Positions 4,912 to 27,585 of a DNA stretch of 64,000 nucleotides are shown here, in pieces (the stretch's first letter is position 1; every line of letters starts with the position of its first letter). The notes under the pieces were generated by a model. That model had not been told where the DNA came from and made no database searches. It saw only the letters and a program-made list of their open reading frames with translations. Location of the stretch: NCBI GenBank assembly GCA_009841225.1, contig VXMF01000009.1:1-64000 (forward strand), read 5' to 3'. Position numbers and translations under genes: made by a program. Source of the stretch: Terriglobia bacterium (GTDB lineage Bacteria; Acidobacteriota; Terriglobia; Bryobacterales; UBA6623).

Positions 4912-5168
4912 CTGAGCGCGAAACCCACTACGTGCTACGCTAATTTGGTATATTTCTCACAGCTATTCTTCTAGAAATGCAGAAGTTTCGGAAGTGAGCC
5001 GACGTACAGTCCCCGCAAGTCGCCCAAGCACGTGATTAGGGCCGATGGCGGACAAGCGTCGCTTCGGGCGCAGCCGGGTGCGCTTGGACGTGGCGGCGAG
5101 AACGGTATCCCGGGAACGCCCGCTCTGGAGGCGGGCGAAAAGAACAGTCCTGGAATCAAGAGCGAGCT

Positions 5169-6614
5169 ATGCTACACCACGATAAACCAACCTACGACGA
5201 GAGCCGGACGAAAGTAGCGCCTCGGACGCGCGAGATCCTGCGCATCGCGGCTCATCTGGACAAGACCGACACCGCCCGTGAGATCACCTTGGAGTGGCTG
5301 GAGAGCGCGTCCAAGACCGAGCTGCCGGACGAGGCTTGGTCCGGCAATGCCTTCCACCATGAAGCTGAGAAGCGGGCATTCACGGCCGTCCGCGCGAAAG
5401 AGGACGATGTACAAACGTGGGCGCTACGCTTCGTTGAGCCCGAAGAGGGTGACATCCAGCGAGAGTGGACCACCGAGGTCGCGATCCGTGAGCGTCCCGG
5501 GGAGGACGCCGAGTTCTGCCTCCGCACGCTGGCGAAATCCACGGAAACGAAGATGCGGGTGCAGCCGAGGGTGCCAGGATTCCTCGAGCACGTCGTTAAG
5601 GAATGCACCATGGAACAAGGTGCCGCCAAGATCGAGAAGGAGCCGTGGGTCGTCGAGTCCGAGTACGACGCGGCGAACCTGGCGGAGTTCTTGGTCGATC
5701 CCGACCGGCGCACGCCAGCCTTCGTGCTGACGGTGCCGGAAGAATCGGAGGATCCCGTCCGCCCGCTGCTGGACCCGATGCCGCTTACGGCGGACACGCT
5801 GGGCATCGCCAAGGTGATCGTGCTGCCTGCCGAGTACACATGGAAGCTCACGAACCGCTTCGGGAAGCGTCTGTCGGTCTACCGCGGAGCCATGCGGGTG
5901 TACCTGTCTGGCTTCAACGACAGGGCCGATCCGGAAGGCGGCCACGACCTGTTCATGCCGCATCGCATGGATACCCCCGAGACGGCGGCCAAGCTGGGCT
6001 CGCTGCTGCGCTGGATGGCAGCGCGCGAAAGCATGCGGGGCTGGCGGCTGGGTCACGACGTGATCCCGTTCGTTTCGGCCATGCTTCCCAGCATTGATCT
6101 CGAGAGCGCAACTCTGGCCGAAAACGGCGCCAGCGCAGCCGATCAGCTGGCTGCTTCGGCGCGGCACGTGGCGATGCTGCGCGACGAGCTCAAACTGGCG
6201 CTAGAGATCCAGCAATCCCTCACCGAGGAGAACCAATCCATCGAGGGGCGCATGCGCGAGTCGGAGTCCAAGCTGCGCAAGACGCAAATGCGTCCGCGGC
6301 CAACATTCGACCGCGGCCCCCGCCCATCCTACGAGGATCGAGGCCGTCCACAGTTCGACCGAGGGTCGCGCCCGCCGTATGGCGACAGGGGTCGCCCGGC
6401 GTTCGACCGGCCTCCTCGGCAATACGAGGACCGCGGGCAGCGCCCGTTCGAAGGGCGCGGCCGTTCGTTCGAGGACAGGGGCCGTCCGGCGTTCGGCAAC
6501 CGCGGTCGCGGGCCGTACGACCGCGACCGGGACCGCAGCTTCGAACGGGATCGTCCCAGGCCCAGATACTCACAGTACGGCGATGAGGATGACGACAGTG
6601 GCTACGGAGAATAG
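5169..6614 (+). CDS. Uncharacterised protein with coiled-coil region and RG/RP-rich disordered C-terminal tail
   Basis: Long ORF; C-terminus DRGPRPSYEDRGRPQFDRGSRPPYGDRGRPAFDR... repeats; hairpin (CGCCCGC-N7-GCGGGCG, 5117-5137) upstream of start. Confidence 0.85.
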   Translation: MLHHDKPTYDESRTKVAPRTREILRIAAHLDKTDTAREITLEWLESASKTELPDEAWSGNAFHHEAEKRAFTAVRAKEDDVQTWALRFVEPEEGDIQREWTTEVAIRERPGEDAEFCLRTLAKSTETKMRVQPRVPGFLEHVVKECTMEQGAAKIEKEPWVVESEYDAANLAEFLVDPDRRTPAFVLTVPEESEDPVRPLLDPMPLTADTLGIAKVIVLPAEYTWKLTNRFGKRLSVYRGAMRVYLSGFNDRADPEGGHDLFMPHRMDTPETAAKLGSLLRWMAARESMRGWRLGHDVIPFVSAMLPSIDLESATLAENGASAADQLAASARHVAMLRDELKLALEIQQSLTEENQSIEGRMRESESKLRKTQMRPRPTFDRGPRPSYEDRGRPQFDRGSRPPYGDRGRPAFDRPPRQYEDRGQRPFEGRGRSFEDRGRPAFGNRGRGPYDRDRDRSFERDRPRPRYSQYGDEDDDSGYGE

Positions 6615-6682
6615 GGGGTCGTAGACCACGCCTCTGGACATTCGAGGGCCGCGACTCGCACGGCTTGGCTGGGCCGATACGC

Positions 6683-7462
6683 ATGCAAGATTTGGGGGGC
6701 AAGACCGCTCTAGTTACCGGCGGGTCACGGGGGATCGGCCGTGCGATCTGCCTAGAGCTGGCCGCTCGCGGAGCCCGTGTGGCGGTGAATTACCGAAGCC
6801 GCGCGGCGGAGGCGGAGGCAACAGCAGCTGCGGTGCGCGACCTTGGGGTGTCCGCCTTGACGATCCAAGCCGATGTCTCTAGGCGCCCGGAAGTCAGCGC
6901 GATGGCGAAACAGGTAGAGGCCGAATTGGGCGCGCCCGACATCTTGGTCAATAACGCCGGGCTCCTGCATCGCGGAGAGCTGCTGGACTACAGCGAGGAC
7001 GAGTTCGACGGGATGTGGCGGACCAACGTCAAGGGAGTCATGTACTGCTCCGAGGCTGTGGCGCCCGAAATGATTCGGCGGGGCTGGGGTCGGATCGTGA
7101 ACCTGGCTTCCAACGCGGCCATTGGGACGGCGATGGCAGGCACCACGCTGTACGCGGTGACCAAGGGAGCGGTGCTCACGCTCACCAAGCGCATGGCCTT
7201 CGAGCTGTCTCCAAAGGGCATCACGGTGAACGCCGTGCTGCCGGGATTCACGAAGACCGACATGGTCATGTCCGGCAAGTCGCGGGACGAGCTAGACCGG
7301 CTGCTTCAAAGCGTCGCCGAGCGCTCTCTGGTCGGACGGACAGGAGAACCGGAGGACATCGCACACCTGACGGGATTTCTGTGCTCCCCGGCGAGCGGGT
7401 TCATCACCGGACAATTCATGATGGCCGATGGCGGCCGCCAAGACTACCTCACCAGGGTGTAG
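6683..7462 (+). CDS. SDR-family 3-oxoacyl-ACP reductase-like protein
   Basis: TGGSRGIG, NNAG, YxxxK (YAVTKGAV) SDR motifs. Confidence 0.9.
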   Translation: MQDLGGKTALVTGGSRGIGRAICLELAARGARVAVNYRSRAAEAEATAAAVRDLGVSALTIQADVSRRPEVSAMAKQVEAELGAPDILVNNAGLLHRGELLDYSEDEFDGMWRTNVKGVMYCSEAVAPEMIRRGWGRIVNLASNAAIGTAMAGTTLYAVTKGAVLTLTKRMAFELSPKGITVNAVLPGFTKTDMVMSGKSRDELDRLLQSVAERSLVGRTGEPEDIAHLTGFLCSPASGFITGQFMMADGGRQDYLTRV

Positions 7463-25031: not shown

Positions 25032-25442
25032 ATGCAAGCGCAGTTTAGCTTGGCGTCCTACAGTCGGACGATCGCGGCCGACTTGGACGACATGGACCGC
25101 TACTGCGCTCTGATGCACCAGCTCCCTCGGCAGTTCCATAAGCTAACAGCAGCCGATCAGGCCGCCGCGCTCTCGGATCGGCCGCCATTGACGGGAACCC
25201 GCTGGGATGCGCTGTTAGCCGCCGTCGTGGAACACATCGCGAGGCTGCACAGCCACAATGTGCCGGATTGGGTAAACGAGCCGGACCGCTTCCTGACCGT
25301 CCCGTGGGTGATCTCGACAAATCCGGTGATCGCGGCGGATTCCGTTCTCTACGCGCCGGCTTCGTTCATCCGACACAGCGTATTTCCTGATCCCCTCGAC
25401 CTCGACGCTAGGGGGGGCGAGAAACATGCCTGGGTCCCCTGA
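25032..25442 (+). CDS. Uncharacterised small protein, possible antitoxin-type partner of the downstream nucleotidyltransferase
   Basis: Overlaps downstream ORF by 17 nt; RWDALLAAVVEHIA...PDWVNEPDRFLTVPWVIS. Confidence 0.55.
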   Translation: MQAQFSLASYSRTIAADLDDMDRYCALMHQLPRQFHKLTAADQAAALSDRPPLTGTRWDALLAAVVEHIARLHSHNVPDWVNEPDRFLTVPWVISTNPVIAADSVLYAPASFIRHSVFPDPLDLDARGGEKHAWVP

Positions 25443-26040
25443 TCCGGGTCGCCCCCTCGATCACGAGGCACTGACACGCGCTTTCAAGGCCCTTGAAAAA
25501 CAGCTCGCGTCACAGGGCGTCAGGGCACACGTCTACATCGTTGGCAGCGCGGCTCTCATGATGGCGCACCGTCGCAGCCAGACCACTATGGATGTTGACG
25601 CGCTGTCGATCGACCACCGCGAAGTGGTGTTGGCGAGCGCGCGAGTTGTTGCCAGAGAGCACGGGCTGCCGGACGATTGGCTGAACGACGACGTACGATG
25701 GGTTCCGATCTTGCCGCCGCAGCCGGACCCACGGGCAGAGGTCCTGTTCGATTCCCCCAACCTCGTTGTCACCGGCGCGTCCGCCCGTCACATCCTTGCG
25801 ATGAAAGTGCGCGCTGCGCGAACGCGCGATCTGGAGGACATCAAGCTGCTGATGCGGCAGATCGGCATTGCCACGATGCAAGAGGTGCGCGACCTCCATC
25901 GCGCGGTGTACCCGCACGATGAAATTCCCTGGCGCAGCGAAGAGCGGATCAAAGCCTGTCTTCGCGAACTTGGCGAAGAACACGAGCGCGACGCCCGGCC
26001 GCCGGACAAGCCTGCCCGCGACGTCGGCGACGAGCGCTGA
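25426..26040 (+). CDS. DUF6036-like nucleotidyltransferase
   Basis: VGSAALMMAHRRSQTTMDVDAL (GS...DxD) and ILAMKVRAARTRDLEDIKLL. Confidence 0.75.
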   Translation: MPGSPDPGRPLDHEALTRAFKALEKQLASQGVRAHVYIVGSAALMMAHRRSQTTMDVDALSIDHREVVLASARVVAREHGLPDDWLNDDVRWVPILPPQPDPRAEVLFDSPNLVVTGASARHILAMKVRAARTRDLEDIKLLMRQIGIATMQEVRDLHRAVYPHDEIPWRSEERIKACLRELGEEHERDARPPDKPARDVGDER

Positions 26041-26193
26041 TCCCGCCTCGGCCGGACCTGTTCCCAAAGGGGCCTGGAGAGGGATCGGTCGCAGGCGCAC
26101 CCCCACCGGTACGGCCGACGCGAGCGTGCCCGGATAGCTCATGGCATTGGCAGAGCGAGCGCCCCTCCATGAATCACCCGACAGCTCGGCGAA

Positions 26194-27585
26194 TCACCGC
26201 AGAGCACTCAACACGGATTCGGCATCCACCACAAAGCCGAGTTCGTTCTGACGGGGCAGATCGTCCGCCTGAGGAACGAAGAGCACGGGAATGATGTCGC
26301 AATCCCTCGTGCCCGGCAGGGCACCGTTGGTAAGCCCCGCCAGCAATCTTCCGACATTCTTGCAGCCCAACGAACGCTTCGCTTCGCCGACCAAGACCCG
26401 GCTTCCGTCAATGGAACGCGCGACGATGTCTCGCTCGGGGGCGCTTCCGTGCCAGAACCGCTGCGCAGGCTCGAAGGGGCCGAATCGAGCGAGAGGATGG
26501 TCAGATTCATGCAGCTTCGGCACGGCAGCGCTACACAGTTCCTGCCAAGCTACGGCTTCCAGGTCGCGCCTGTAACGATGCCAGTAGCGGAGGCGCGATT
26601 CGGGCGGGGAGGCGGTAAGCGCGGCGCGGTGCGGGGCGACCACGCGAAACCACATCCGCAAGAATGGATCATCAATGCGGTAGAGACTGCGCTTGCCCGA
26701 ATGCGGATCGCTGCCGAATGGGAGTTCTCGGCGAACGAAACCCATTTCCATGAGCGCGGCGATCGGCCTGGCGAGGCTCGTTGCCGGACGGCCGAGTCTC
26801 CCGGCGATCTCGCCGAGGCGGCGCGCGCCTGAGCCGACGACGTCGAGAAGCGGACGCAGAGAGGTCGCCGGGGGAGTCTCCTCGTAGAGCAGGTGCTCCG
26901 GTTCGTGATGGAGCGGGCCACAAGGATCGAGAACAAGAGAATCGACCGCTTCATCGAGATCCTCGCCGAAGGGGACTGCCAATTCCCAATAGCGCGGCAT
27001 CCCTCCCCAGAGAGCGTAGATTCCTACCAAGTCGCTAAACCGACGAAACTCGAAGGCGTCCGCAAGAGAGCCGGCTCTGAGGGGGCGCAAGGCGAAAGAT
27101 TCGACTGCCCGGCCGAGCGGCGGGGCACTGGCATCTACGACTACCCGATGCATCATGCTCTGGCTCCATCCGCTGACTGCGACGCACAGGTTCCTGCCCG
27201 GCTGGCCGAGCCAGTCTTGGAACCGGCCGGCAAAGAAAGGATCAGCAGCCATCAAGTGCTGCAGTTCGTCCACGATGAACGGCCCCCGCCACCCAGCCTG
27301 ATCGGCCTCCACCGAAAGCCGGGTCAACAGCGCCCGCCAGGTTGGGTACTCGATATCCGCAAAGCCGGGAAACCGCTCCGCGACAGCGGAAGCCAAGTAG
27401 CGACGTTGCACCTCAGGCGCAGAATTCTCCGCAACGGTATACAGTCCTTCGCAGTGCCTGCACCCCTCGATGAGGAGACGCGACTTTCCGACGCGCCGTC
27501 TGCCCCAGATCACGGAGAACGAGCCCGTTCGGGCCAATTCCCTGTTCAAGCGCCGGACCTCGCTGTCGCGGCCGAGGAATTCCAT
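26194..27585 (-). CDS. Archaeal-type AAA ATPase with DUF234-like PD-(D/E)XK C-terminal domain
   Basis: Walker A WGRRRVGKSRLLIE, Walker B FIVDELQHL, C-terminal RDIVARSIDGSRVLVGEAK. Confidence 0.82.
   Translation of the reverse strand: MEFLGRDSEVRRLNRELARTGSFSVIWGRRRVGKSRLLIEGCRHCEGLYTVAENSAPEVQRRYLASAVAERFPGFADIEYPTWRALLTRLSVEADQAGWRGPFIVDELQHLMAADPFFAGRFQDWLGQPGRNLCVAVSGWSQSMMHRVVVDASAPPLGRAVESFALRPLRAGSLADAFEFRRFSDLVGIYALWGGMPRYWELAVPFGEDLDEAVDSLVLDPCGPLHHEPEHLLYEETPPATSLRPLLDVVGSGARRLGEIAGRLGRPATSLARPIAALMEMGFVRRELPFGSDPHSGKRSLYRIDDPFLRMWFRVVAPHRAALTASPPESRLRYWHRYRRDLEAVAWQELCSAAVPKLHESDHPLARFGPFEPAQRFWHGSAPERDIVARSIDGSRVLVGEAKRSLGCKNVGRLLAGLTNGALPGTRDCDIIPVLFVPQADDLPRQNELGFVVDAESVLSALR

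Follow-up and report, generated by a model that had tools for sequence, protein, structure and literature searches.

HEC-07 (Hma-embedded candidate 7) is a candidate single-gene anti-phage protein in PADLOC-DB 2.0.0. The HECs were defined in a preprint (doi 10.1101/2024.01.29.577857) cited in PMC12988326, where several HECs, HEC-06 among them, are reported to be antiviral. Our literature search found neither a paper naming HEC-07 nor a published test of it.

By a scan of genome contigs, we obtained 30 named loci of the HEC-07 family, which span Acidobacteriota, Pseudomonadota, Nitrospirota, Thermodesulfobacteriota and others, while further proteins with the family's C-terminal domain (C-domain) came from a search of the phylum. 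Of the named relatives outside the Bryobacterales group, 17 have an intact C-terminus, and each of these carries a conserved C-domain of ~150 aa. In a Defluviicoccus bin (L066) and a Rhodobacteraceae bin (L080), the HEC-07 gene is located after HmaA and before HmaB, and HmaC follows further downstream; at L069, type I methylase and specificity genes precede it. The Hma operon of L066 (5444-20000) consists of HmaA, an unknown 274-aa protein, HEC-07, HmaB, a PDC-M07A/HEC-01A-like ATPase, an unknown 187-aa protein and HmaC. A sequence-only reading of the gene studied here had the weak impression that proteins of this kind are found close to defence genes. The Hma operons and type I restriction-modification neighbours bear this out for the canonical relatives; however, these relatives carry the toxin-like C-domain and not the tail described below, and the gene itself is fixed, syntenic and outside defence islands.

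The invariant positions of the C-domain include D, H-x-K, R, Y, W and P-x-H, and its AlphaFold2 model (15 sequences) has a pLDDT of 84. In a Foldseek search of this model against the PDB, the seven best matches were all RelE/HigB proteins, with E 0.046 or worse, and an hhalign comparison of the C-domain profile with 25 ParE-type proteins taken from related genomes gave no match. The likeness of the canonical C-domain to RelE/HigB mRNA interferases is, in other words, one of best PDB folds that lies below usual significance and is unsupported by profile comparison, and “RelE-like” is therefore used here as a working hypothesis and not as a statement of membership. The C-domain also resembles NsnC of Menshen (the Menshen genes being NsnA-C) in that the NsnC model PDLC03912 marginally matches seven of 15 C-domain members (best E 3e-4) and matches L105, another C-domain protein, with E 1.1e-4. 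Moreover, the C-domain is found on other N-terminal regions (L032, L039, L105) and apparently alone (L103, L104, L106). As a working hypothesis, we regard it as a modular RelE-like effector domain that is common to several defence systems and has no Pfam family. Pfam matches in HEC-07 relatives were rejected as family assignments because they are echoes of the coiled coil.

A HEC-07 core with a different C-terminus

The protein studied here is encoded in the window, i.e. the whole stretch of 64,000 nucleotides that was analysed. The gene, its parts and its immediate surroundings are as follows:

5045..5138, + strand: conserved 5′ leader including the hairpin at 5117-5137 (near-invariance, location of matches, slight covariation)
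5169..6614, + strand: coding sequence of the tailed HEC-07-family protein, 481 aa (open frame; orthologues in 11/11 genomes of the genus; dN/dS about 0.1)
5202..6068, + strand: folded N-terminal core, residues 12-300 (HEC-07 profile; AlphaFold2 pLDDT mostly 84-96)
6069..6290, + strand: helical and coiled-coil region, residues 301-374 (modelled helices 301-318 and 323-373)
6291..6611, + strand: disordered Arg/Gly/Pro/Asp tail with F/Y every 7-9 residues, residues 375-481 (composition, shuffles, dN/dS, pLDDT)
6665..7462 (ATG at 6683), + strand: short-chain dehydrogenase (SDR, FabG-like), next gene downstream (PF13561, E 1.1e-60)

The open reading frame at 5169-6614 is exactly as the sequence-only reading had described it. 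By contrast, the label “orphan” was wrong, since residues 12-375 match the PADLOC HEC-07 profile PDLC04161 with E 9.3e-89; three other HEC-07 models match as well, more weakly. The match extends no further than position 387 of 553 in the profile, and the family C-domain (positions about 388-553) is entirely absent, which sets the window protein apart from RelE/HigB and NsnC. The stretch that had been singled out as a conserved core is indeed kept in the alignment columns across the HEC-07 family, and the impression that the protein belongs to no characterised enzyme family is in line with the Pfam and NCBIfam searches, which, together with PHROGs, returned no family. PDB sequence searches with the family profiles gave coiled coils or chance matches only, the viral fold library nothing convincing, and neither a single-sequence query of viral contigs nor plasmid and phage records any match to the window protein.

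AlphaFold2, run on an alignment of 23 sequences, models residues 14-377 with good confidence. The core consists of a beta-rich half (~19-124) and an alpha/beta half (~136-291), for which Foldseek found weak YwmB/START-like and thioredoxin matches with target TM-scores ≤0.68, none with E <1e-3. The coiled coil that had been predicted to precede the tail corresponds to a long helix (323-373) in the model and is common to all family members. Residues 378-481 have a pLDDT <50 and are predicted to be disordered. We presume that the N-terminal core is a sensor and the coiled-coil region an oligomerisation module.

All 11 genomes of the genus carry the tailed gene, and 89 other genomes searched from the same family and order yielded no orthologue. 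In every genus orthologue with a visible C-terminus, the C-domain is absent and an Arg-rich tail is present; the orthologue in G006 is cut by a contig end and that in G002 is divided between two contigs. We inferred a tree from the core columns only, i.e. with the C-terminal columns set aside, and used divergent HEC-07 proteins as the root. All tailed proteins fall into one clade (99/97) in this tree; the groups within which the clade is nested have support of 96/97 and 99/99, and their other members have the C-domain. As a single tailed clade nested among C-domain proteins can be explained by one exchange of effector for tail, the swap very probably took place once, in one Bryobacterales genus, and was followed by fixation under purifying selection. 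Thus, the window protein resembles HEC-07 in its N-terminal core, coiled coil, conserved columns and nested position in the core tree, but differs from canonical HEC-07 in that an Arg-rich disordered tail replaces the RelE-like C-domain. The family is known; what is new is a HEC-07 with this exchange of effector for tail.

The named orthologues come from metagenome-assembled genomes (MAGs) of Bryobacterales or Terriglobia (Acidobacteriota); judging by isolate names like SB0664 and RHO3, their source may be sponges. One member, the tailed HEC-07 of L064 (VXPS01000130.1), is on a contig labelled “Chloroflexi”. Horizontal transfer was considered and rejected because L064 nests inside the Bryobacterales clade. 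A further gene on its contig is 54-69% identical to copies in the genus and has no comparable match outside the genus (26 related genomes). Based on this nesting and this genus-specific gene, L064 is most likely a misbinned Bryobacterales contig.

The arginine-rich tail

Disordered RNA-binding tails of the RG/RGG and DRYG types are found, for instance, in bacterial DEAD-box helicases and in the DRYG region of eIF4B. The tail of the window protein (375-481) is 25% R, with G, P and D at 14% each. The sequence-only reading had called it dense in RG/RP-type repeats, and this stands up to comparison with shuffles of the same residues: RG occurs 9 times vs 3.8 (a fraction of 0.002 reach 9), [DE]RG 6 times vs 0.8 (0/5000 reach 6) and RP 11 times vs 3.7 (0/5000 reach 11). 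Moreover, 12 of the 13 intervals between tail F/Y residues are 7-9 residues long, a number that none of 100,000 shuffles reached (best 10), and this regular spacing is confined to the tails of the window's subgroup. Across the orthologues of the genus, the tails are 42-112 aa long, R-rich and nearly lysine-free, while their length and motif order differ between subgroups.

The tail is no accident of GC-rich coding. Its six DRG units are encoded by six different codon combinations (gac-cgc-ggc, gat-cga-ggc, gac-cga-ggg, gac-agg-ggt, gac-cgc-ggg and gac-agg-ggc), and the array is therefore not a recent DNA repeat. Among four close orthologues, dN/dS is 0.10-0.13 in the tail vs 0.08-0.09 in the core, with many synonymous changes in the tail; judged by these substitution patterns, the tail is under purifying selection.

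The comparison with aromatic RGG-type tails made in the sequence-only reading is right in part. The tail is predicted to be disordered, is rich in Arg, Gly and D/E-R-G units and has spaced aromatics, as in RG/RGG- and DRYG-type tails; however, it has no RGG triplet (the units present are RGR, RGP, RGS and RGQ), is near-neutral and sits on a defence-family core rather than on an RNA enzyme. With 27 R and 1 K vs 22 D+E, its net charge is +6, and other orthologues reach up to +15. Because of this near charge balance and the absence of RGG, the window tail is not a typical RGG tail. With charges so nearly balanced, any binding that does occur may depend less on charge than on contacts between Arg and aromatic residues. 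RNA binding or condensate formation by the tail is plausible.

The locus and possible functions of the tailed protein

In orthologous loci with enough flank, the gene order is dnaK, dnaJ, an hspR-like MerR gene, SNF and SDF transporters, the tailed HEC-07 gene, the SDR gene, a sulfatase gene and recO. The tailed gene is mostly at this one site across the genus and has no defence genes adjacent to it; in this, it is unlike canonical HEC-07 genes, as it occupies a fixed syntenic chromosomal site and not an Hma or other defence locus. In nine further orthologous loci where it is visible, the SDR is 71-95% identical and encoded on the same strand 9-69 bp downstream, suggesting that the tailed gene and the SDR gene are probably co-transcribed. 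Some genomes of the genus also have an intact HEC-07 at another site (L025 in G006 and L027 in G007) or matches to the C-domain alone at other sites. In most genomes of the genus, among them that of the window, the tailed gene is unaccompanied by an intact HEC-07, and HmaB is patchy in the genus, with no match in G005 and G009 and a short interrupted fragment in G000. Since the tailed gene is kept without HmaB or intact HEC-07, it does not depend on Hma or on intact HEC-07.

With a toxin-like domain swapped for a tail and a fixed chromosomal gene, the window protein looks like a defence protein put to another use. We tentatively favor, at slightly short of an even chance, a model in which the window gene is a domesticated HEC-07 that probably encodes an RNA-binding, multivalent scaffold keeping the sensor core and coiled coil; its biochemistry we infer. 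In this model, canonical HEC-07 would be built as sensor, coiled coil and effector, with a core that would perceive infection or Hma failure and, once triggered, would release the RelE-like domain, which would cleave mRNA. The tailed form would retain ligand or partner binding by the core and oligomerisation through the coiled coil, but the output would no longer be killing. Instead, the multivalent Arg/aromatic tails could bind RNA or ribosomes, and one another, resulting in a non-toxic RNA-binding and possibly condensate-forming scaffold that would be co-expressed with the downstream SDR. The more specific proposal, in which a single exchange put an RNA-binding, condensate-forming tail in place of the toxic effector and what had been a killer triggered by infection became a housekeeping RNA scaffold with the original sensor, is more doubtful, and we put it forward as a rather speculative possibility.

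A somewhat less probable reading is that the protein is still immune and has a new output, i.e. that the core would sense phage and the tail would execute or recruit the response, for instance by clustering on phage nucleic acid or ribosomes, so that the gene would be a defence gene of the core genome and no longer a mobile one. That the core retains the conserved residues of the family and that the relatives are defence-associated would fit this reading; however, the presumed effector is gone, the gene evolves slowly (dN/dS about 0.09), unlike typical arms-race genes, and it is fixed in 11/11 genomes at one site among metabolic and transport genes, with an SDR as neighbour and no adjacent defence genes. 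We therefore regard this reading as unlikely.

The co-occurrence of the tailed gene with the intact copies in G006 and G007, and the C-domain-only matches in other genomes, would be expected if the tailed protein were a toxin-less antidote that mixes into oligomers of intact HEC-07 acquired on mobile DNA, or competes with it, and so restrains its toxic domain. But intact copies are missing from most genomes, that of the window among them, and L025 and L027 are only 27% and about 25% identical to the tailed protein, making mixed oligomers doubtful; the selection on the tail would also be left unexplained. We consider this function decidedly improbable. Finally, the tailed protein could be a product of decay that has lost its effector and bears a low-complexity tail as neutral filler. 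While the variation in tail length (42-112 aa) and motif order among subgroups speaks for decay, it is at odds with the tail dN/dS of 0.10-0.13 with many synonymous changes, the different codons of each DRG unit, an aromatic spacing that exceeds that of 100,000 shuffles and the R-rich, nearly lysine-free make-up in all orthologues. Decay is already disfavoured and has, in our judgement, very little chance of being correct.

The tailed gene suggests that domestication of bacterial defence proteins can proceed by way of a disordered tail that replaces a toxic effector. The exchange also provides a natural experiment on a little-understood candidate defence family, as the sensor core is retained and the output module swapped, making sensing separable from killing and both accessible to experiment. 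For annotation, profiles may count the fixed tailed gene as a HEC-07 defence system although the presumed effector is missing.

The 5′ leader and a further gene pair in the window

Six close genomes share a leader run of ~60 bases (about 5050-5116) almost without change; it is more conserved than the synonymous sites of the gene. Parts of the leader are recognisable in diverged orthologues, including, in part, the GCGCA/GGGTGCGC stem, and its strong matches in related genomes are all found upstream of the tailed gene. The hairpin that had been proposed to allow autoregulation does exist, with 7 bp at the end of this run (5117-5137), but by itself it is nothing special: the sequence around it folds no more stably than shuffled controls (z=-0.46) and an Rfam search of the leader returned no family, for which reasons it was rejected as an autoregulatory element. 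Covariation support for the leader is slight (-0.47 kcal/mol). The leader as a whole is a possible structured leader or regulatory site.

Elsewhere in the window, at 25426-27585, a DUF6036 nucleotidyltransferase-like reading frame (+) lies beside an oppositely oriented ATPase_2-like reading frame (below the Pfam cut-off); the two are possibly a mobile or defence-type pair.
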